This document shows, piece after piece, positions 9,779-19,650 of a stretch of DNA of 64,000 nucleotides. This DNA comes from Aliiroseovarius zhejiangensis (GTDB lineage Bacteria; Pseudomonadota; Alphaproteobacteria; Rhodobacterales; Rhodobacteraceae): assembly GCF_014656375.1 (NCBI RefSeq), contig NZ_BNCH01000002.1:372001-436000 (forward strand). The letters run 5' to 3'. Position numbers and translations under genes: made by a program. Numbering within the stretch: the first letter of the stretch is position 1; every line of letters begins with the position of its first letter. Under the pieces are notes generated by a model. It made no database searches. It saw only the letters and a list, made by a program, of their open reading frames with translations, and was not told the origin of the DNA.

Positions 9779-10552
9779 TCAGGCGACCAGAACACGCACC
9801 TTTCGCGCCCGCAGCGCGTCTGACAGGGGTTTTTCGGGCCGTTGATCGCTGATCAGCGTGCCGATGTCGTCAAGCCGGACCACCTGCTCCAAATGGGTGC
9901 GGCCGAACTTGCTGGCATCCATCAGGAAATGGTGGTTCGCACTTTGACGCATCATGGCACGTTTGACAGAAGCAAACCCGGCCACCGCTTCGCTGACGCC
10001 CGTGTCGCTTAAACCGGCGGCGCCGATGAAACAGGCATCGACATTATACCCCGCCAGATAGTCACAGGTTTCGGTGCCGATCACTGCGGCCTCGCGAGGC
10101 AGGTAATCTCCGGGGGTCAGGCGCACGGAGGTCGCGGGGCTCTGGCCCAGGATCATCGCCACTTGCACGCTGTTGGTGATCACCGTTACCCGCGTTTGCT
10201 GAAAGGCCAGCGCCCGCGCAAATTCCATGGTGGTCGCGCCCGCATCCACCATGATCGAGGTGCCCTCGGTCACAAGCGAGGCGGCAAATCGGCCAAGACG
10301 CTCGCGTTCAGCCACGCGTTCGTGGCGGCGTTCGTCCAGGTCACGATGCGACCCTGCGTGGCGTGCCGACGCCCCGCCATGGGCGCGTTGCAACAGGCCG
10401 TCGCGGCCAAGGTCTTCGATATCGCGGCGCACGGTTTCGGTGGTCACACCAAACTGCCGGGCCAGATCGGCAACCCGGACATGGGGCTTCAGCTTCAGCT
10501 CCAGCAGGATCTGGTCGTGCCGTTCCTGCTTTTTGTAGCGTCGGTTGCTCAA
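9779..10552 (-). CDS. DeoR-family transcriptional regulator
   Basis: This 257-residue protein has the DeoR N-terminal winged helix-turn-helix (RVADLARQFGVTTETVRRDIEDLGRDGLLQRAHGG, near residues 24-60). A sugar-phosphate sensing domain of the phosphosugar isomerase-like fold follows, with DAGATTMEF and VITNSVQVAMIL. I set the start at the TTG at 10552 because the family begins close to the HTH; the frame stays open a further 40 codons upstream but that part looks non-coding. It is divergent from the phosphonate-type transporter and probably regulates it. DeoR proteins usually respond to phosphorylated sugars, which is a clue to the substrate. Confidence 0.82.
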   Translation of the reverse strand: MSNRRYKKQERHDQILLELKLKPHVRVADLARQFGVTTETVRRDIEDLGRDGLLQRAHGGASARHAGSHRDLDERRHERVAERERLGRFAASLVTEGTSIMVDAGATTMEFARALAFQQTRVTVITNSVQVAMILGQSPATSVRLTPGDYLPREAAVIGTETCDYLAGYNVDACFIGAAGLSDTGVSEAVAGFASVKRAMMRQSANHHFLMDASKFGRTHLEQVVRLDDIGTLISDQRPEKPLSDALRARKVRVLVA

Positions 10553-10619
10553 GGGGTGTCCGCCTTTACGCTGATGCTGTTTCGGCCCGTTCGGGGTCAA
10601 TTTACTTTGGCTTTCCAAA

Positions 10620-10652
10620 ATTTGCACATGATTTATCTTGCATATCGCAAAT
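10620..10652. promoter_or_regulatory. Candidate operator between the DeoR gene and phnD
   Basis: The divergent intergenic region holds an inverted repeat ATTTGC (10620-10625) and GCAAAT (10647-10652), with an inner TTGC-N5-GCAA (10638-10650). It is the only AT-rich patch between the two start codons. Binding by the adjacent DeoR protein is inference. Confidence 0.3.
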
Positions 10653-10724
10653 ATCGGTGGTGTCATCCCCACAACTGAGCCCGGCGTGCCGGGCGCAGAC
10701 AGAACAATCTGGGAGGATCAAGAC

Positions 10725-11699
10725 ATGCACAAACAGACCGCATATGGAACGACGTTGCTGGCGGTGATTGCCTTTGCCGCAGGCGCGGCCATGGCGCAGG
10801 ACGAAACCGCCGCGCTGGACAGTCAATACACTGATGCCGATGGTGATCTGGTGGCCGATGCGCCAACCGATCCCAGCCTGCTGAAAGACCCCGATACGCT
10901 CGTCTTCGCCTATACACCGGTGGAAGACCCGGCGATTTACGAAGACATCTGGAACCCGTTCATCGAACATCTGGAAGAGGTGACCGGCAAGGACGTGCAG
11001 TTCTTCGCCGTGCAATCCAACTCGGCCGAGGTCGAGGCGATGCGCTCGGGCCGTCTGCACATCGCGGGCTTCTCGACCGGCCCCACCCCCTTTGCGGTGA
11101 ACCTGGCCGGTGCGGTGCCCTTTGCGATCATGGGCGGGGATGACGGGCAGTTTGGCTACAAGCTGCAAATCTATACCCAAGCCGACAGCGACATCAAAGA
11201 GGTGCCGGATATGGCGGGCAAGCGCATCGCGCATACCTCGCCCACCTCGAACTCGGGCAATCTTGCGCCGCGCGCGCTGTTCCCCGATCTGGGCGTCGTG
11301 CCGGATCAGGATTACGAGGTCAGCTATTCCGGATCACATGACCAGTCGATGCTGGGCGTCGTCGCGGGTGACTATGACGCGGCCCCGGTGGCCTCCGAAG
11401 TGGTCGACCGGATGGCCGAACGCGGGCTTTATGACCCGGCCGATGTGCGCATCGTGTGGGAAAGCGATCCGTTTCCGACCACGTCCTATGCCTATGCCCA
11501 CGACCTAACGCCGGAGTTGAAAGAGAAGATCGAAGAAGCCTTCTTCACTTTCGAATTCGCCGGCACCGCACTGGGCGACGAGTTCACGGGGGTCAGCAAA
11601 TTCATCCCGATCACCTATAAGGATCAGTGGAAAGTGATCCGCCAGATTCAGAAGGCAAACGGTGTGGAATACACGCCCGAAGGCCTTGCGGCGGAATAA
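10725..11699 (+). CDS. phnD: Phosphonate-type ABC transporter substrate-binding protein
   Basis: This periplasmic protein of 324 residues has a signal peptide of about 24 residues ending AAMA. The mature part has the PhnD-family layout (LVFAYTPVEDPAIYEDIWNPF, then GKDVQFFAV, HTSPTSNSGNLAPRALF and YSGSHDQSMLGVVAGDYDAAPV). PhnD proteins bind phosphonates, but relatives bind phosphite, phosphate esters or other anions, and the ligand cannot be read here. A strong Shine-Dalgarno GGGAGGA precedes the ATG at 10725. It is first in a five-gene run with phnC, two phnE and a HAD phosphatase. Confidence 0.85.
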   Translation: MHKQTAYGTTLLAVIAFAAGAAMAQDETAALDSQYTDADGDLVADAPTDPSLLKDPDTLVFAYTPVEDPAIYEDIWNPFIEHLEEVTGKDVQFFAVQSNSAEVEAMRSGRLHIAGFSTGPTPFAVNLAGAVPFAIMGGDDGQFGYKLQIYTQADSDIKEVPDMAGKRIAHTSPTSNSGNLAPRALFPDLGVVPDQDYEVSYSGSHDQSMLGVVAGDYDAAPVASEVVDRMAERGLYDPADVRIVWESDPFPTTSYAYAHDLTPELKEKIEEAFFTFEFAGTALGDEFTGVSKFIPITYKDQWKVIRQIQKANGVEYTPEGLAAE

Positions 11700-11755
11700 G
11701 ACCTGCGCGTTCGGGGCCGGTGCCATGCCACCGGCCCCCTTAAAGGAGCCAGCAT

Positions 11756-12532
11756 ATGTTGAAGATCACCGACCTGGTCAAACGCTACGGCAAGGGCGAC
11801 CCGGTTCTGAAAAACCTCGACCTGACGATCGAGGGCGAAAGCGTCGTGTCCATCATCGGATCGTCCGGGGCGGGGAAATCGACGCTTCTGCGCTGCATCA
11901 ACCGACTGGTGGAGCCCACGTCGGGCAGTATCGAGCTGAACGGAACCGAACTGACGACCCTGCACGGGCGCGAGCTGCGCGCCGCGCGGCGCAAGATCGG
12001 GATGGTGTTTCAAAGCTTCAACCTTGTGGATCGCCTGACGGTGATGGAAAACGTGCAGTCCGGGCGGCTGGGCTATATCTCGACCTGGGCGGCCGTGATG
12101 CGCCGCTATCCGAAAAAGGATATCCGCCGCGCCTATGAGTTGATGGAGCGGGTGGGCATCGCCCATTATGCCGACAAACGCGCGGATGAGTTGTCCGGCG
12201 GCGAACGGCAGCGTGTCGGCGTGGTGCGCGCCCTGATGCAAGACCCTGAAATCCTGCTGGCGGACGAACCCACCGCGTCGCTGGACCCCAAGACTTCTGA
12301 ACAAATCATGGGGTTGCTGCGCGATCTGGCGGGCGAGCTGAAACTGCCGGTCCTGATCAATATCCACAACGTGACCGAGGCCAAGATTTACACCGACCGT
12401 ATCGTCGGGATGCGCTATGGCCGTATCATCTTTGACGACACACCGGACAGTCTGGATCAGGAGGCGATGGATCAGATCTACTCCGGCAGCCCCCATGCCG
12501 ACCGCAAGACCGACATGAAAGAAGCGTCATGA
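11756..12532 (+). CDS. phnC: Phosphonate-type ABC transporter ATP-binding protein
   Basis: The 258-residue ATPase has Walker A GSSGAGKST (residues 35-43), a Q-loop at FQSFNLVDRLTVMENV, the ABC signature LSGGERQRV near residue 146 and Walker B ILLADEPTASLDP. The spacing and the segment following the Q-loop, with an insertion (GYISTWAAVMRRYPKKD), are typical of PhnC. Its stop overlaps the next gene's start by four bases. It would power the two PhnE permeases on the cytoplasmic face. Confidence 0.92.
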   Translation: MLKITDLVKRYGKGDPVLKNLDLTIEGESVVSIIGSSGAGKSTLLRCINRLVEPTSGSIELNGTELTTLHGRELRAARRKIGMVFQSFNLVDRLTVMENVQSGRLGYISTWAAVMRRYPKKDIRRAYELMERVGIAHYADKRADELSGGERQRVGVVRALMQDPEILLADEPTASLDPKTSEQIMGLLRDLAGELKLPVLINIHNVTEAKIYTDRIVGMRYGRIIFDDTPDSLDQEAMDQIYSGSPHADRKTDMKEAS

Positions 12533-13332
12533 GCAGCACGCCGGACACGCCCGATACCTGGCGCAAGCCCCCCTTCATCGCCAATCGCTGGCTGCGTTGG
12601 GCGGTTTATCTGGGGATCATCACCTATATCCTTTGGGTGGGCGCCAGCATGCCCATCGACTGGGAGCGGGTCGCAGACGGCCTTGGCCGCGCCAAACGGA
12701 TTTTCGGCGGGGCGTTCCCGCCTAGTTTCGACCGCAGCGGCTTGTTGATCGACGGTTTTCTGGAAAGCCTGAAGATCGCGCTTCTGGCGACCGCAGGCGG
12801 GGTCGCCCTGTCGGTCCCGATTGCCTTCATGGCCGCGCGCAATATCGCGCCTTTGCCGATCTATTACCTCGGACGGGCGATCATCATCATCGCGCGCAGC
12901 TTTCATCCGGTGATCGTCGCGATCATCTTCGTGAAGGCGGTGGGCTTTGGCCCCTTTGCAGGGGTGTTGACGCTGATCGTCTACTCCATCGGTTTCGTCG
13001 CCAAGATGCTGGCTGAACGGATCGAAGAGATCGACTTTGGTCAGGTCGAGGCGATGCGCGCCGCCGGGGCGCCGTACCTGTCGACGCTGGTCTATGCCAT
13101 CATGCCGCAGATTATGCCGCGTCAGATCGGCCTGTCGATCTATCAGCTTGATTCCAACCTGCGCGCCTCCGCCGTCGTCGGCATCGTTGGTGCTGGCGGC
13201 ATCGGGGCCACGCTGGCCAATGCCTTCGGGCGCTATGACTATGACTTCGCGCTGGCCATCACCATTGTGATCGTAGGCGCGATCCTGATCTCGGAAGGGG
13301 TCAGCGGCATGATCAGGAAACGCATTTCATGA
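12529..13332 (+). CDS. phnE: Phosphonate-type ABC transporter permease 1
   Basis: This 267-residue inner-membrane protein has about six hydrophobic segments and the permease EAA-type loop (GQVEAMRAAGAPYLSTLVYAIMPQIMPR, near residues 173-200). The conserved end AVVGIVGAGGIGATLANAFGRYDYD is typical of PhnE. Both flanking junctions are four-base ATGA overlaps with phnC and the second permease. Two adjacent PhnE genes are usual for heterodimeric phosphonate transporters. Confidence 0.9.
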   Translation: MSSTPDTPDTWRKPPFIANRWLRWAVYLGIITYILWVGASMPIDWERVADGLGRAKRIFGGAFPPSFDRSGLLIDGFLESLKIALLATAGGVALSVPIAFMAARNIAPLPIYYLGRAIIIIARSFHPVIVAIIFVKAVGFGPFAGVLTLIVYSIGFVAKMLAERIEEIDFGQVEAMRAAGAPYLSTLVYAIMPQIMPRQIGLSIYQLDSNLRASAVVGIVGAGGIGATLANAFGRYDYDFALAITIVIVGAILISEGVSGMIRKRIS

Positions 13333-14138
13333 GCACGATTGCCGAGAAATTCGGGCGCGAGGACTGGTCGCGTTTTACCTTCAAGCAGCGAATGCAACGC
13401 TATGCGATCTTCGCATTCAGCGCGCTGGTGCTGGGCTGGGCCTTGGGGTCGATTGACGTGATCTGGGCCTGGGTCTGGGATGCACCCGAGCAAATGGGCG
13501 ATCTGTTCGGCCGCATGTATCCGCCCGACCCCAGCAATCTGGGCGACATCCTGCGCGTGCTGCTGGAAACGGTGAACATCGCCACCTTTGCGACGGCGCT
13601 TGGCGTCGTGGTGTCGCTGCCGGTTGCCTATCTGGCGGCGCAGAACACCACACCCAACCGCGCAACCCTGTGGCTGGGACGGCTGATCCTTGTCACCTCG
13701 CGGTCAGTCAACACGATCATCTGGGCGCTGTTGTTCGTGGCGATCTTCGGCCCCGGTGTGGTGGCCGGGATCCTCGCCATCATGTTCCGGTCCATCGGCT
13801 TTATCGGCAAGCTGCTGGGCGAGGCGATCGAAGAGATCGACAAACGCCCCGTCGAGGCGCTGGAGGCCACCGGCGCATCCCGCTTCAAGGTGATCGTCTA
13901 TGCGATCATCCCGCAGGTCATGCCCACCTTCTGGGCCGTGGCGATCCTGCGCTGGGACATCAACCTGCGCGAATCCACCGTGCTGGGTCTGGTCGGGGCA
14001 GGGGGGATCGGCATCATCCTGCAAGGCGCGATTGATACGTTCAACTGGCCCGAAGCGGCGATGGTTCTGCTTGCGATCCTGGCCCTTGTGGTGCTGGGCG
14101 AAGTCGTGTCGGCCTTCCTGCGCCGTCGCATCCTGTAG
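13329..14138 (+). CDS. phnE: Phosphonate-type ABC transporter permease 2
   Basis: The second PhnE permease has 269 residues, six or so membrane segments, the EAA-type loop KRPVEALEATGASRFKVIVYAIIPQVMP and the glycine segment STVLGLVGAGGIGIILQGAI. It is a divergent paralogue of the upstream permease and probably forms a heterodimer with it. It is separated from the following HAD gene by about 20 bases. Confidence 0.9.
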   Translation: MSTIAEKFGREDWSRFTFKQRMQRYAIFAFSALVLGWALGSIDVIWAWVWDAPEQMGDLFGRMYPPDPSNLGDILRVLLETVNIATFATALGVVVSLPVAYLAAQNTTPNRATLWLGRLILVTSRSVNTIIWALLFVAIFGPGVVAGILAIMFRSIGFIGKLLGEAIEEIDKRPVEALEATGASRFKVIVYAIIPQVMPTFWAVAILRWDINLRESTVLGLVGAGGIGIILQGAIDTFNWPEAAMVLLAILALVVLGEVVSAFLRRRIL

Positions 14139-15098: not shown

Positions 15099-15147
15099 TG
15101 TCAGGTCTTGGGCCTACCTGACAACTTGCTGAAGCGCGGGGTCAGCA
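15099..15147. promoter_or_regulatory. Two consecutive inverted repeats before the Ser/Pro-rich protein gene
   Basis: Two stem-loops follow each other: TGTCAGGT/ACCTGACA (15099-15106 and 15116-15123) and TGCTGA/TCAGCA (15127-15132 and 15142-15147), each with a nine-base spacer. There is no T run, so the first may be a weak terminator of the phn operon, or the pair may be operator sites for the next module. Confidence 0.35.
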
Positions 15148-15225: not shown

Positions 15226-15639
15226 ATGACCCGGAACGCGTCCACCCCCCAAGTCAAGAAACCCCTGTCCCGGCGCGCGGCGATGCTGCGGTTGGGGGGC
15301 GTCGCCGTGGCGGCCTATGTCGTGCCCTCGATGACCGTTCTGTCCGCAGCCCATGCCAGCAGCGCCAGCCCGGCCAGTAAAGCCACGCGTCCGAGCCCGA
15401 CATCCAAGCCCAGCCCGACATCCAAGCCCAGCCCGACGTCCAGCCCCAGCCCGACGTCGAAGCCCAGCCCCGCCAGCACCCCCAGCACACCGAGCGGTCC
15501 GACCACGCCAACTGGCCCGTCTCCGGTCAGCGGGCCAAGCCGTCCCGACTATTCAAAGATCGTCGACCGCGACAGCTGCGAAGCGGCCGGTGGACGCTTT
15601 GATGCCGGTGCAAATACCTGTACGGTGCGCACACGATAA
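15226..15639 (+). CDS. Exported Ser/Pro/Thr-rich repeat protein with Tat-like leader
   Basis: I do not recognise a named family. The 137-residue protein starts with a twin-arginine-like leader: S15-R16-R17-A-A, then a hydrophobic stretch to about residue 40, and a likely cleavage after AHA at residue 44. The mature part is a run of SPTSKP hexads (residues 57-86), coded by 18-base tandem repeats, then a Pro/Gly/Ser linker. A short C-terminal domain has a cysteine pair, C118 and C132, enclosing EAAGGRFDAGANT. The ATG at 15226 follows the Shine-Dalgarno AAAGGAG. The leader and linker closely match those of the protein at 17015-17602. It could be a structural or sensor peptide modified by the kinase-like protein that follows. 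Confidence 0.75.
   Translation: MTRNASTPQVKKPLSRRAAMLRLGGVAVAAYVVPSMTVLSAAHASSASPASKATRPSPTSKPSPTSKPSPTSSPSPTSKPSPASTPSTPSGPTTPTGPSPVSGPSRPDYSKIVDRDSCEAAGGRFDAGANTCTVRTR
15394..15483 (+). repeat. 18-bp tandem repeat coding for SPTSKP hexads
   Basis: Four near-identical 18-base units (agcccgacatccaagccc and variants) run from 15394 to 15465, and a degenerate fifth unit runs to 15483. They code Ser-Pro-Thr-Ser-Lys-Pro. Such in-frame repeats can expand or shrink by slippage without breaking the gene. Confidence 0.88.
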
Positions 15640-15675
15640 TCGGCCCCGGTGCCAACACCGACCCGGCCAGACCGC

Positions 15676-15700
15676 GACCGCCCTTGGATCAAGGGCGGTC
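15676..15700 (+). terminator. Stem-loop between the repeat protein and the kinase-like gene
   Basis: A perfect ten-base-pair stem GACCGCCCTT/AAGGGCGGTC with a five-base loop lies 36 bases after the stop of the repeat protein and 40 before the next start. It lacks a T run, so it is more likely a partial terminator or an mRNA processing/stability element that would lower expression of the downstream genes relative to the small exported protein. Confidence 0.5.
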
Positions 15701-15740
15701 GATTTGGCGGGTCGGGGCGCAAGCAGAAAGGAAATCCCAC

Positions 15741-17018
15741 GTGGCGCGAACCAATCTTGTCACATTTGAAGGTTTGCAGGCCCCGATCGCCTTTCAGGAT
15801 GCCGTATCGCTTGAGCGACTGGCGCAGGACATTATCCCGTCCTGGCCAAGGGAAGCGGCACCCGGTGGCGCCCCGGACGCACCCTTTGCGCGCCTGTCGC
15901 CAGCTGGGAACGACAAATGGCAGGTCGATATCGCCGCCGATCCTGATGGCACGCGCATCTGGGATGATGTGGACGCGCTGTGCGACCTGATATCGGAAAT
16001 GGCCTGGCAACGACTGCGCGCTGCCCCGGAGCTTTTATGCCTGCACTGCGCTGCGGTCGCCTTTGGCCCGCGTCTGGTGGTGTTTCCCAACGCAAGACGG
16101 GCGGGCAAATCCACCCTGACCATGGCACTGGCACATTTGGGACTGACCGTGTTCACCGATGACTTCCTGCCGGTTGAGATCGAGGCCGAGGACGGTCGCC
16201 TGCTTGGAATCGCCAACGGAATAGCGCCCCGCCTGCGCTTGCCTTTGCCTGACGGGTTTTCCGAAGCCTTCCAGACCTGGGTCGCACGTGATCCCGGCCC
16301 GGCGAATGCGCGCTATAAATACATGACCGATGTGCCGATCGCCGAGGGCCAGCGCCGCCTTCCTATCGGGGCGGTTGTTGTGCTGGACCGGCAGGACAGC
16401 CCCACCGCACCCCGTCTGGTGTCCGCTTCACCTGCCGATGTGATGCAGGTGATGATCCGGCAGAATTTCTCGCGCGATCAGCACGCGGGGCGGATCCTGA
16501 CAGCGGTCGAGGCGGTGACGCAAACGGCGCCCCTGTTTCGCCTGGAATATTCCAGCGCCGAGGAAGCCGCAGACTGGCTTGCCCGGTCTGAGAAGCTGCG
16601 CGATCTGCCCGAAGCGCGGATCGCGCACGGGGTTTCGGATGAGCTCGTGCAGTCCTATGACCGGGACGCGGCTCCGGGACAGCCCTTCGATCCTTTGGCG
16701 ATCTATGCTCGGGCGCCCGGTCTGGTCGAAACCCAGGTCGAGGACACGTTCTTTCTGGCCGATGCCAATGGGCAGGCGATCCACCAACTGAACCAGGGGT
16801 CGCTGGCCATCTGGCGAATCCTGGACGAACCGGCCAGCCTGGACGAGGTGGTCGAGGTCATGTGCGCGGCCTTTCCGCAGATCGACCCGGACCAGATCCG
16901 GATTGATGCAACCCAGTGTTTGCAACTGTTTGCACAGGCACGGCTGATTGAAATGGCAGGGAATCGCATGGCAGCGTCCCAGATCGACCAGAACGCCCAA
17001 CACAGCGGGCGCGGATGA
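15741..17018 (+). CDS. HPr-kinase-like / PqqD-domain fusion protein
   Basis: This 425-residue protein joins two parts. Residues 80-320 resemble HPr kinase/phosphorylase: a P-loop-like segment FPNARRAGKSTLT (G122-K123-S124) and FTDDFLPVE, which resembles the conserved acidic motif after the P-loop in HprK. The first P-loop glycine is Asn (N117). Residues 330-420 form a PqqD-like domain (LVETQVEDTFFLADANGQAIHQLNQ, SLAIWRILDEPASLDEVVEVM). PqqD domains are recognition elements for RiPP precursor peptides, and HprK-like kinases phosphorylate the precursor in some lasso peptide clusters. The GTG at 15741 follows AGAAAGGA. Its end overlaps the next gene by four bases. Phosphorylation of the neighbouring Ser-rich proteins is inference. 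Confidence 0.72.
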   Translation: MARTNLVTFEGLQAPIAFQDAVSLERLAQDIIPSWPREAAPGGAPDAPFARLSPAGNDKWQVDIAADPDGTRIWDDVDALCDLISEMAWQRLRAAPELLCLHCAAVAFGPRLVVFPNARRAGKSTLTMALAHLGLTVFTDDFLPVEIEAEDGRLLGIANGIAPRLRLPLPDGFSEAFQTWVARDPGPANARYKYMTDVPIAEGQRRLPIGAVVVLDRQDSPTAPRLVSASPADVMQVMIRQNFSRDQHAGRILTAVEAVTQTAPLFRLEYSSAEEAADWLARSEKLRDLPEARIAHGVSDELVQSYDRDAAPGQPFDPLAIYARAPGLVETQVEDTFFLADANGQAIHQLNQGSLAIWRILDEPASLDEVVEVMCAAFPQIDPDQIRIDATQCLQLFAQARLIEMAGNRMAASQIDQNAQHSGRG

Positions 17019-17602
17019 CGCGCAAAGACCTCATATCCCGTCGTCAGGCGCTGGCCCGCATCGGGCTGGGGGCTGCGACGGCCTATGTGGCCCCGGCAGT
17101 GCTGGGGCTGAGCCAGGCGCGCGCCTCAACCGCGTCGCCCGCCAGCCGCGCCACACCCCCAAGCCCGGCCTCGGCCCCCAGCCGTGCGTCGCCGCCCAGC
17201 AAGGCCTCGCGCCCCACCGCGCCGACGGGACCATCGGGCAATGACGAACCCGGCGCGGGCAATGGCGGGGGCGGGGGCGGATCTGACGCCCCCTCATCCG
17301 TGTCCGGTCCGTCGGGAAGCCGTGACGATTGTCGGCTCTCCCGGTCGGGTGGGCAGATGACGATTTCTAGGCAGGAATACCGGCAGGCGCAGGCGGCAAT
17401 CCGGCAAGGTCAGGCACGGCCCCTGGGCGAGATCGTGCGGATCGCCCAACGCCGCTATCCTGGCCAGCCTGTGCGCGTCGGGTTTTCGACAAACCGGGGC
17501 GAGCCGCAGTACCACATCCAGATCGTCACCGGATCGGGCGAAGTGATCGCCGTAACGATTTCCGCGCGATCCGGCACCATACTCAAGGCGCGGAGATGCT
17601 GA
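17015..17602 (+). CDS. Exported Ser/Pro-rich protein with PepSY-like C-terminal domain
   Basis: The 195-residue protein has a Tat-like leader (S8-R9-R10-Q-A-L, hydrophobic to about residue 34, likely cleavage after ARA at residue 37). A low-complexity Ser/Pro/Gly region follows to about residue 107, including a poly-Gly run. The C-terminal 85 residues look like a PepSY domain (QEYRQAQAAIRQGQARPLGEI, RRYPGQPVRVGFSTNRGEPQYHIQIV, SGEVIAVTISARSGTILKAR). A cysteine stands before the domain and another is the last residue. PepSY proteins are often periplasmic modulators next to two-component systems. It overlaps the kinase-like gene by four bases, and the response regulator follows at once. Confidence 0.75.
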   Translation: MTRKDLISRRQALARIGLGAATAYVAPAVLGLSQARASTASPASRATPPSPASAPSRASPPSKASRPTAPTGPSGNDEPGAGNGGGGGGSDAPSSVSGPSGSRDDCRLSRSGGQMTISRQEYRQAQAAIRQGQARPLGEIVRIAQRRYPGQPVRVGFSTNRGEPQYHIQIVTGSGEVIAVTISARSGTILKARRC

Positions 17603-18268
17603 ATGAGGGTCTTGATCGTAGAAGACGAAGCAAAGATATCCGACCTGATTGCGGCGGTGCTGGAAAGCGAAGGGTTCATTGCCGAAGTGGCGCAGGATGG
17701 CAAGCAAGGCTGGTTTCTGGGCAGCACCGAATCCTATGTGGCGGCGATACTGGATATCGGCCTGCCCGAGTTGGACGGGCTGTCGGTGCTCAGGAACTGG
17801 CGGTCCGAAGGGGTCGACATGCCGGTGATCCTGCTGACAGCGCGCAGCAGCTGGAACGAACGCGTCGCGGGCATTGATGCGGGGGCCGACGACTATCTGG
17901 GCAAGCCGTTCCAGATGGAAGAGCTTGTCGCCCGCCTGCGCGCGCTTTTGCGGCGCAGCGGGGCGCAGAAATCCACCGTGCTGGAAACCGGGGATGTGCG
18001 GCTGGACATGAAACGCATGCAGGTCACGCGGGCAGGGCGACCGGTCAAGCTGACCCCGCTGGAATACCGCCTGCTGGCCTATGTCATGCACAATCCGGAC
18101 CGCGTGATCAGCCAGTCGGAACTGGCCGAAAGCATCTATTCCCGAGACCAGGAACCGGACAGCAACGCGCTTGAGGTGCTGGTGGGCCGGTTGCGGCGCA
18201 AGCTGGGCGAGGACATCATCCAAACCCGGCGTGGATTTGGATATGTGTTCACCAGGTCTGAGCCATGA
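17603..18268 (+). CDS. OmpR-type response regulator
   Basis: This 221-residue regulator has an N-terminal receiver domain (LIVEDE, phosphorylation site D51 in LDIGLPELDG, TAR in ILLTARSS, lysine in DDYLGKPF). A winged-helix DNA-binding domain follows (LTPLEYRLLAYVMHNPDRVISQSELAESIY, LRRKLGEDIIQTRRGFGYVF). It is closest to the QseB/PmrA/BasR type. Its ATG follows the preceding stop without a gap, and its end overlaps the sensor kinase by four bases. It probably controls the exported Ser/Pro-rich genes just upstream. Confidence 0.93.
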   Translation: MRVLIVEDEAKISDLIAAVLESEGFIAEVAQDGKQGWFLGSTESYVAAILDIGLPELDGLSVLRNWRSEGVDMPVILLTARSSWNERVAGIDAGADDYLGKPFQMEELVARLRALLRRSGAQKSTVLETGDVRLDMKRMQVTRAGRPVKLTPLEYRLLAYVMHNPDRVISQSELAESIYSRDQEPDSNALEVLVGRLRRKLGEDIIQTRRGFGYVFTRSEP

Positions 18269-19650
18269 CCTCGTCGCTCAGCCTTCGCCTGTTGCTTCTG
18301 GCCATGGTGTCCACAAGCGTGGCCCTTGTCTCGACCGCGCTGTTCCTGAACCTGCTGTTTCAGGAGTATTTCGAGGACCGGATCGCGCAGGAACTGGACA
18401 CCCACCTGTTCATGATCACGGGCCACCTTGGCATCGACGACACGGGCGCAGTGGCTTTGGCGCCGATAGCCGATCCACGCTTCGATCAGCCCTTGTCCGG
18501 CTATTACTGGCAGATCCAGATCAACGACGATCCACCGATGCTGTCGCCCTCGTTCTGGGCCGCGCCGCTCGACGTGCCGCGCCCGCAAGCCCAGGGTCAG
18601 GTGCAATATGACCGGGTCGAGGTCGATGCCGAAACCCCGCTGTCGCTGGCCAGTTGGCGATTGTCGATGGGCGATCCGACACATGCGCAGGACGTGTTCG
18701 TGATGGTGGCGATGGACCGCTCTGACATTGATCTGTCGGCGGCAGGATTTTTCCGCAGTTCCGCATTGTGGCTTGCGATCATGGGGGCGGTTCTGATCCT
18801 TGCGGCGTGGGTGCAGGTGCGGCTGGGGCTAAAGCCGCTTGAAAAGATCCGTGCCGAGGTCACCCAGATCATGACCTCGTCTAACTCCCGCCTGTCACAC
18901 GACTATCCGCGCGAGGTTCAGCCGCTTGCCCGCGAGGTCAACAACCTGCTGGATGCCAACGAGACCGCGTTGGAAAAGGCGCGCACCCATTCCGGCAATC
19001 TGGCGCACGGGTTGAAAACCCCTCTGACCATCCTGCAGAACGCCGCGCACACCCTGCGCGGAAACGGAGAGGCGCAGATTGCGACCCATATCGAGACCGA
19101 GCTTGAGAATATGCGCCACATTGTCGAGCGCGAGCTTGCCTCGGTGCGCAACAGCGCGACGGCGCGCCGGTACAGCCGCGTGAAACCGTCTGCCCAGCGG
19201 TTGGTGAATGTTCTGAAACAACAACCCAACGCCGCGCATATCACCTGGGAGCTCGACCTGGTGGACGACGTTCTGGCGCCGTTCGACCCGCACGACCTGA
19301 CCGAGTTGCTGGGCAACCTGATGGACAATGCAATGAAGTGGACGCGGGATCACATCCGCGTGTCCGCAACGCATGACGGGGATCGGGACGTGCTGCGCAT
19401 CGACGACAACGGTCCGGGAATTTCAGAAAGCCTTCGGGGGCTGGTGCTGGAGCGCGGAAAGCAATTGTCAGACGATCAGACCCGCGCCGCCACGGAGGCT
19501 GACGCGCAAGCAGGGTCAGAGCTGGGGGCCGGGCTTGGCTTGACGATCGTTCACGACATGGCAAAGACGGCCGGATGCACGCTGGACCTGTCACGAAGCC
19601 CATTTGGCGGGTTGTCGGTCGGGCTGAGTTGGCCCCGTTTCAGCCCCTGA
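18265..19650 (+). CDS. Sensor histidine kinase partner
   Basis: The 461-residue membrane kinase has an N-terminal transmembrane helix (LRLLLLAMVSTSVALVSTALFLNLLF), a periplasmic sensor of about 140 residues and a second transmembrane helix near residues 168-185. The HisKA domain has its histidine at H248 (NLAHGLKTPLT). The ATPase domain has an N box at ELLGNLMDNAMKW, the G1 box DDNGPGIS and G2 GAGLGLTIVHDM. The layout resembles PhoQ/QseC-type kinases. The PepSY protein just upstream is a plausible periplasmic partner, but that is inference. Confidence 0.93.
   Translation: MTSSLSLRLLLLAMVSTSVALVSTALFLNLLFQEYFEDRIAQELDTHLFMITGHLGIDDTGAVALAPIADPRFDQPLSGYYWQIQINDDPPMLSPSFWAAPLDVPRPQAQGQVQYDRVEVDAETPLSLASWRLSMGDPTHAQDVFVMVAMDRSDIDLSAAGFFRSSALWLAIMGAVLILAAWVQVRLGLKPLEKIRAEVTQIMTSSNSRLSHDYPREVQPLAREVNNLLDANETALEKARTHSGNLAHGLKTPLTILQNAAHTLRGNGEAQIATHIETELENMRHIVERELASVRNSATARRYSRVKPSAQRLVNVLKQQPNAAHITWELDLVDDVLAPFDPHDLTELLGNLMDNAMKWTRDHIRVSATHDGDRDVLRIDDNGPGISESLRGLVLERGKQLSDDQTRAATEADAQAGSELGAGLGLTIVHDMAKTAGCTLDLSRSPFGGLSVGLSWPRFSP

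Follow-up and report, generated by a model that had tools for sequence, protein, structure and literature searches.

A candidate RiPP-like phosphorylation and export system in Aliiroseovarius zhejiangensis, with a putative recognition motif inside the Tat-type export signal

Gene organization of the locus

The marine bacterium Aliiroseovarius zhejiangensis carries a set of five genes, all on the + strand, in which a kinase-like protein fused to a RiPP recognition element (RRE; RiPP, ribosomally synthesized and post-translationally modified peptide) is encoded together with two putatively exported proteins and a two-component system. The set was analyzed within a 64-kb stretch of the genome, referred to as the window, and has the following features (window coordinates).

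15118..15145, + strand: likely a response-regulator box, CTGACA-N5-CTGAAG-N5-GGTCAG, 108 bp 5' of the precursor start
15226..15639, + strand: precursor SP1, 137 aa (open reading frame and ribosome-binding site; leader-profile match of 7.0e-14 in its own genome)
15675..15701, + strand: 12-bp stem-loop between the precursor and kinase genes (folding of the spacer)
15741..17018, + strand: fusion of an HprK/PEPCK-fold kinase domain and a lasso-type RRE, 425 aa (profile and fold searches)
16704..16955, + strand: RRE (PqqD) part of the fusion, residues about 322-405 (Pfam PqqD match)
17015..17602, + strand: PepSY protein, 195 aa (Pfam PepSY; leader of the SP1 type)
17603..18268, + strand: OmpR/PhoB-type response regulator (profile match)
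18265..19650, + strand: sensor histidine kinase (profile match; PhoQ-like by score, every score lying under the curated cut-offs)

The first-pass annotation of this DNA had described five same-direction genes with mostly overlapping ends, and three of the four junctions (the second to the fourth) do overlap or abut; precursor and kinase genes are separated by a gap of 101 nt. Its assignments of a PepSY domain, a response regulator and a histidine kinase are likewise borne out by profile matches (Pfam PepSY at 7.1e-7, above cut-off). For the fusion gene, a GTG start behind GAAAGGA was preferred over a TTG lying upstream. The spacer region 15640-15742 folds at -56.4 kcal/mol (z -4.9), and among the 33 precursor-kinase intergenic regions folded across loci (two more were left out) 25 reach a z of -2.0 or lower and eight do not. 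A folded spacer would fit a precursor made in excess over its enzyme.

SP1 and the PepSY protein begin with the same type of leader, a putative twin-arginine translocation (Tat) signal of the form RR...AxA that holds a Y-x-x-P-x-(hydrophobic) motif. In SP1 the leader comprises residues 1-44 (RR16-17, Y31, P34, AHA 42-44) and is followed by a Ser/Pro-rich core with one Cys pair toward the C-terminal end. In the PepSY protein the corresponding residues are RR9-10, Y24 and P27, and a Ser/Pro-rich linker follows.

The fusion combines an HprK/PEPCK fold with a lasso-type RRE

The fusion matches Pfam PqqD at 4.3e-8, above cut-off. Its best NCBIfam match is HprK_rel_A (TIGR04352) at 38.9 bits (E 5.3e-10), which does not reach the cut-off of 200 bits; relatives at three other loci (L076, L080, L090) score 43-53 bits against the same model. 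To place both domains, we used a profile (A1) of 21 fusion sequences including that of the window, leaving out L042, whose start is unclear, and L052, whose frame is interrupted. Against solved structures A1 matches TbiB1 best (2.8e-7, profile positions 323-403), followed among RRE-like structures by 9x8z, named only as a PqqD family protein (3.3e-6), TfuB1 (1.6e-4) and 9x90 (3e-4). PqqD and PqqCD of pyrroloquinoline quinone (PQQ) synthesis match poorly (0.013-0.014), and a role in PQQ synthesis was rejected on this ground. Coxiella HprK (3tqf) is matched at 1.4e-4 over positions 102-154 with the His and Asp-Asp aligned. An AlphaFold model of the fusion (mean pLDDT 91) retrieved PEPCK (4.7e-5) and HprK (3tqf, 8.3e-5; 2qmh, 2.9e-4) in Foldseek, and superposed on TbiB1 with its bound leader (5v1v) with an rmsd of 1.7 over 84 columns.

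The C-terminal domain is consequently nearest to lasso-peptide RREs such as TbiB1 and not to PqqD of PQQ synthesis, and the N-terminal domain is, by sequence and predicted fold, an HprK/PEPCK domain with the putative catalytic His, P-loop Lys-Ser and Asp-Asp. The HprK and PqqD domains that the first-pass annotation had assigned to this protein therefore stand, PqqD by a match above cut-off and HprK by fold and profile with TIGR04352 below its cut-off. Residues H102, A121, G122, K123, S124, D140 and D141 are invariant in 21/21 aligned fusions, and the P-loop [RKH]-A-G-K-S is a family-specific trait. The comparable residues of the lasso-peptide kinase BsfK are given as H-G-G-G-K-S-D-D; BsfK is reported to phosphorylate Ser3 of its substrate in a reaction greatly accelerated by the RRE BsfB1 (PMC10368454). 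A plain HprK of carbon metabolism was also considered and rejected: weak HprK-like matches occur in 182 of 292 genomes of the family, mostly over about 50 residues, and are separate from the fusion.

The leader is a putative Tat signal with an embedded YxxP motif

Leaders were compared across the window and other loci, 34 of which we refer to as named loci (Aliiroseovarius, Ruegeria, Loktanella, Yoonia, Defluviimonas, other Rhodobacteraceae and metagenome-assembled genomes). In all 34 the leader gene lies 5' of the kinase gene. When 51 leaders are aligned on the Tyr, 50 share the register of RR while L073 has it three residues farther from the Tyr; R/K occupies position -9 in 43 and Gly position -7 in 48. 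Tyr and the Pro at +3 are present in all 51, a count partly selected by the search pattern, which demanded Y or T before x-x-P. Position +5 is hydrophobic (25 Leu, 9 Phe, 8 Met, 6 Val and 3 Ile), and Ala is found at +11 in 45 and at +13 in 45, forming an AxA site whose cut lies 14 residues behind the Tyr.

A scan that did not demand YxxP listed a 5' RR reading frame bearing YxxP at 33/34 named loci. This frame was the sole candidate at 22 loci and the nearest at 31; several candidates were present at 11 of the 33, where the YxxP frame was picked. At the 34th locus, L142, the leader gene lies at the contig start. Six leader proteins (L039, L053, L073, L090, L104 and L110) were found by eye or by the motif-free scan. 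A leader profile (A3) built from 40 of the 51 leaders, including most of those from the family (leaders of genomes G196 and G032 lay outside it) and excluding every PepSY or S8-protease leader, nevertheless recovers seven PepSY leaders (3.0e-8 to 8.2e-16) as well as those of two S8 proteases (8.4e-10 and 2.4e-9). Gene calling in the fetched regions gave 48 Tat-like genes. Thirty of them have YxxP and all belong to the kinase-leader system; none of the other 18, at least one of which is no signal peptide, has YxxP at the leader position.

With the RR motif, a hydrophobic stretch, AxA and a TatC in the same genome, the leaders bear the marks of Tat substrates and are putatively Tat-exported. The first-pass annotation had stated that no peptide exporter is present; this needs correction, as an export route is available in the Tat pathway. 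The embedded motif resembles YxxPxL, which is kept in actinobacterial lasso leaders, proteobacterial ones carrying another motif according to a review (PMC6784204); lasso leaders of Bradymonadales are reported to have YxxPxL at -17 to -12 (PMC10368454).

Leader and kinase co-occur

We searched 295 genomes of the family, no two from the same genus. A full-length fusion is present in 23 (E 3.1e-23 or better), with weak partial matches only in 17 further genomes. The leader (E 1e-5 or better) occurs in these 23 and additionally in G196, 24 genomes in total; in G196 the contig ends inside the kinase gene and the kinase N-terminus is matched at 7e-7. In the other 271 genomes the profile searches found neither leader nor full-length fusion. 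Co-occurrence far exceeds chance (24/24, counting the truncated kinase of G196 and the interrupted one of G123, versus 0/271). A set of 25 genomes without the fusion gave three weak partial leader matches (E 0.002-0.008). At the level of the locus, 33 of 35 leader matches lie at the kinase, within about 3.2 kb; the other two are an S8 subtilase (L149, Pfam 5e-24) and a Ser/Gly-rich protein (L150). The first-pass annotation had called for a test of co-occurrence, and the genes do co-occur elsewhere; the 34 named loci overlap the 295-genome sample, and the two sets are not independent. Within Aliiroseovarius itself, the genomes G297 and G456 lack both kinase and leader, indicating a patchy distribution.

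Beyond the family, 36 of 385 genomes of the class and 4 of 299 of the phylum (own genome included in both) match A1 at 1e-20 or better (threshold of the class sample), two of the four being members of a family that lies outside the class. We fetched 30 loci, which come from 29 of the 37 other matching genomes. The six fused ones (L072-L075, L090, L091) all have a leader protein, and many others encode kinase and RRE as separate adjoining genes. Leader genes are found at 17 of the 30 loci, that of L093 on the opposite strand and 1.5 kb off. Relatives, annotated as PqqD family protein, are also present on six plasmid records of Paracoccus and Shinella. At L085-L089 and L094-L101, HprK-like genes lie mostly beside a PqqD gene and the scans found no Tat/YxxP leader gene nearby; these loci possibly represent a related system with a substrate still to be found.

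Cargo proteins share Ser-rich segments and differ otherwise

Behind the leader, 51 cores were compared (a locus containing masked bases is not among them). Ser is present in 51/51, and Ser pairs three residues apart number 539 versus 232 (s.d. 11) in shuffled cores. The residues between them vary (AA, EP, RP, KP, GG), as does net charge, from -29 to +25. In no core is the number of Cys odd, and 26/51 have at least two.

The leader is found on whole proteins as well. Among the loci with a complete PepSY and two-component block, 20/21 encode a PepSY protein with the leader and a Ser/Pro/Thr-rich linker, and so does L036, likely a twin of L122. Cys 106 and 195 are invariant in 19 aligned PepSY homologues; these were picked by the RR...YxxP pattern (alignment A4), so that only the Cys conservation is unselected. 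The S8 proteases of L047, L108, L110, L149, L152 and L153 also carry the leader; in some of them a stretch rich in Ser/Gly follows, in others one rich in Arg or in Asp/Arg. At L038 (about 10513-12070 of that locus) a shortened PepSY gene and then a transposase-like gene lie between an intact-looking kinase gene and the two-component pair.

Two putative envelope-signaling modules accompany the kinase

A PepSY, response regulator and histidine kinase block follows the kinase gene in the same order at 21 of 34 named loci. The remaining 13 have no complete block, and in three of them (L140, L141, L145) the contig or stretch ends inside the PepSY leader. A direct repeat, CTGACA-N5-CTGACA, lies 5' of the precursor with at most one mismatch in 20/20 readable named block loci, slightly further upstream in L122, and is present in the three truncated loci as well. 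At the 10 loci that lack the block, no site upstream of the precursor matches with fewer than three mismatches. Matches with at most one mismatch occur in 0.03 percent, and with two mismatches in 0.9 percent, of shuffled upstream regions. The window copy (15118-15134) has two mismatches, and the 64 kb hold four such matches, so that its identity as a box rests on its position and its relatives. OmpR-type regulators are known to bind 11-bp direct repeats. The proposal of the first-pass annotation that the two-component system controls expression is supported by this repeat, which marks precursor promoters at loci with the system and not at those without. A wide regulon was considered and rejected: each of 16 genomes, some having the system and some lacking it, holds 0-4 exact copies of the repeat, and a regulon beyond the own operon cannot be claimed.

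The block resembles DbfQRS of Vibrio cholerae, in which the periplasmic PepSY protein DbfQ, encoded with its two-component system, is reported to bind and directly regulate the sensor DbfS; PepSY modules with histidine kinase and response regulator are described as widespread (PMC12714742). By analogy, the window PepSY protein is probably the ligand of the encoded sensor kinase. At L105, a fragment like a response-regulator C-terminus lies about 2.4 kb after the kinase start, where a two-component system is otherwise not seen, suggesting that the system was lost recently.

A second architecture is found at L047, L108, L110, L152 and L153, where genes for an extracytoplasmic function (ECF) sigma factor and an anti-sigma factor diverge from a leader-bearing S8 protease gene, which is followed by precursor and kinase. 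At L053 the S8/ECF genes lie downstream instead and encode an S8 protein that lacks this leader, and at L149, in the same genome as L046, the subtilase set is encoded elsewhere in the genome. On the Paracoccus marcusii plasmid (L153) the precursor, between the S8 and PqqD genes, is unannotated and its frame looks interrupted, with leader and Ser-rich part in different frames. In a tree of 63 fusions the S8/ECF and two-component loci fall in different halves, the deepest nodes being weakly supported. Among 47 loci, compared by clustering the genes called within 6.5 kb, no additional enzyme gene keeps a constant position in most; one opposite-strand gene, with no function assigned, is present at +1300 in four.

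A putative leader-guided kinase and its alternatives

We consider it probable that the locus encodes a RiPP-like phosphorylation and export system, built on a leader-guided Ser/Thr kinase whose leader is also the export signal. The RRE of the fusion would bind the leaders of SP1 and the PepSY protein in the cytoplasm, most likely through the YxxPx(hydrophobic) motif within the Tat signal peptide, and would present the Ser-rich stretch behind the leader to the HprK-like domain, which would phosphorylate its Ser/Thr residues. The Tat machinery would export the product and signal peptidase would cut the leader at AxA; one segment would in this way double as RiPP leader and as export signal. Together with the two-component system, the PepSY protein may make up an envelope sensor of the DbfQRS type, with the precursor promoter under its control. 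As to the exported peptide, we can only guess at cation binding or envelope protection.

The strongest argument for leader recognition is that a lasso-leader motif sits in a signal peptide found, within the family, only together with a lasso-type RRE. For Ser as the target, it is the presence of Ser in every one of the cores, whose charge and spacing residues otherwise vary. Action of the fusion on both exported proteins is indirectly supported, since both have the same leader, with its lasso-type RRE motif, and none of the 295 genomes has this leader without the fusion; the interpretation given in the first-pass annotation, Ser phosphorylation of the two exported proteins by the fusion, is in this sense partly supported.

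Several observations weigh against this reading, chief among them the altered P-loop, the Ser-poor cores and published mutants of the lasso precursor BsfA. The position of the middle P-loop Gly of BsfK is R/K/H in 21/21 fusions and that of the first is Gly in merely 7/21, and with so atypical a P-loop the domain could be a weak kinase or a non-kinase ATPase. Some cores are poor in Ser/Thr (one residue in L082, two in L079, three in L081, four in L080 and L092), the segment behind the leader of S8 cargo has only a modest share of Ser and in L108 is rich in Asp/Arg, and a three-residue Ser period can arise by tandem expansion of tripeptide codons. BsfA phosphorylation is reported to be unaffected by Ala at Tyr(-17), at Leu(-12), at Tyr and Pro, or at all three, leader removal being slowed by the triple change alone (PMC10368454), so that YxxPxL need not govern the kinase step. 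The Leu of YxxPxL is present in just 25/51 leaders, and L150, the extra leader protein of one genome, has lost the Pro. Scans found no leader gene at 13 of the 30 loci beyond the family, all of them split or kinase-only and under 170 bits. In G123, counted among the 23 fusion genomes, the kinase frame is broken by two stops; this frame (L052, G123:C1:367354-368509) adjoins an intact-looking leader protein.

An unlikely alternative is that the fusion acts as a chaperone in Tat export, comparable to redox-enzyme maturation proteins: the RRE would hold the leader, ATP hydrolysis by the HprK-like domain would release it, and the cargo would be left unmodified. In its favor, conservation of the cargo lies in the leader, the cores differ widely and some have few Ser/Thr, and the P-loop is atypical. 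Yet 21/21 fusions retain the His and Asp-Asp of HprK, and a pure chaperone would not require Ser in 51/51 cores or the Ser-rich stretch behind PepSY and some S8 leaders.

Rather improbable, in our view, is that the fusion adds to Ser/Thr something different from a single phosphate, such as polyphosphate, or that phosphorylation is a step toward another product. The distance of the kinase from every curated model, with 38.9 bits against the cut-off of 200, and its family-specific P-loop would be in line with different chemistry, and polyphosphorylation of a single Ser is reported for lasso kinases (PMC10368454). However, with no further enzyme gene recurring beside the fusion in most of the 47 loci, a second step is not evidently encoded nearby. 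An ordinary DbfQRS-type module beside unrelated genes, the shared leader being a lineage habit of Tat signals, is very improbable: modules of this kind are widespread, with direct regulation of the sensor by DbfQ (PMC12714742), but 13 of 34 named loci pair leader protein and kinase without a complete block (three of them ending within the PepSY leader), and the leader is absent from the 271 kinase-less genomes and from the 18 other Tat-like genes.

Comparison with known systems

The putative phosphorylation and export system is most similar to the kinase BsfK and RRE BsfB1 of lasso peptide biosynthesis in Bradymonas (PMC10368454), with which it shares an HprK-like kinase with His, GKS and Asp-Asp, a lasso-type RRE and, by likeness, the YxxPxL of the leader. 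Core Ser is the target demonstrated for BsfK in that report and the proposed one here. In contrast to what is described there, kinase and RRE are fused in one chain, the cargo includes whole proteins (PepSY, S8), and the leader is a putative Tat signal peptide with AxA instead of the penultimate Thr/Ile of lasso leaders. A lasso peptide cluster, which RRE and leader motif would fit, was rejected because there is no B2 leader peptidase (PF13471) in the genome and no cyclase nearby. B2 is absent from 9/10 fusion genomes tested, own genome included, and no asparagine-synthetase-like cyclase is a recurrent neighbor in the 47 loci. The absence of a lasso cyclase from the cluster, noted in the first-pass annotation, is borne out, the four PF00733 matches of the genome all lying on other contigs or more than 240 kb away.

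The HPr-rel-A system (TIGR04352, TIGR04353), the source of the best NCBIfam match, has an enzyme of the same superfamily with a PqqD-like partner, but the fusion lies far below its cut-off. Compared with DbfQRS (PMC12714742), the window and 21/34 named loci share a small, putatively exported PepSY gene beside histidine kinase and response regulator genes; DbfQ is described there with a predicted Sec signal, whereas the window PepSY protein has a Tat/YxxP leader and a Ser-rich linker and is encoded behind an RRE-kinase gene.

In bufferins and related RiPPs modified by multinuclear non-heme iron-dependent oxidative (MNIO) enzymes, the leader is an export signal too. To our knowledge, bufferins depend on the MNIO enzyme and involve no kinase. 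In the titles and opening abstract lines examined from the open-licence PMC literature, we found no prior description of a cyclase-free, Tat-linked kinase-RRE system; the word "kinase" is absent from the RRE-Finder paper (PMC7470986), and the 2025 RRE paper PMC12710340 does not have it as a whole word. The first-pass annotation had matched the locus to no named system, which stands for the set as a whole in that literature and falls short for the PepSY and two-component part with its resemblance to DbfQRS. A lasso kinase with RRE and a PepSY two-component module are known; new is their union with a Tat signal as putative RRE leader.

We lean slightly toward regarding this as a new RiPP-like class, in which a kinase would find its substrates by a motif in the Tat signal and phosphorylation of Ser-rich segments on peptides, the PepSY ligand and perhaps subtilases would be coupled to export. 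As part of the same reading, two envelope-signaling modules would be joined to it, PepSY with its two-component system or an S8 protease with ECF sigma and anti-sigma factors. If so, the system would link RRE-guided peptide modification, Tat export and periplasmic signaling. A kinase specificity set by the export signal would explain how secreted proteins are phosphorylated in the cytoplasm before exit, substrates could be found genome-wide from a 33-residue motif, and HprK-like proteins recorded merely as PqqD family protein would gain a role. The system is compact, with a core of two genes present in 24/295 genomes of the family and scattered in the class and one family outside it.

Gene calling and neighboring genes

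At window positions 15254-15511 on the - strand, and at homologous sites, frames antisense to the Ser-rich repeats outscore the true gene in a simple gene caller, and SP1-type precursors may consequently be easily overlooked or misannotated. Directly 5' of the system (10725-14138) lie genes for a substrate-binding protein, an ATPase and two permeases, by eye resembling a phosphonate-type ABC transporter, followed by a HAD-like phosphatase gene; this group is not a recurrent neighbor among the 47 loci compared.

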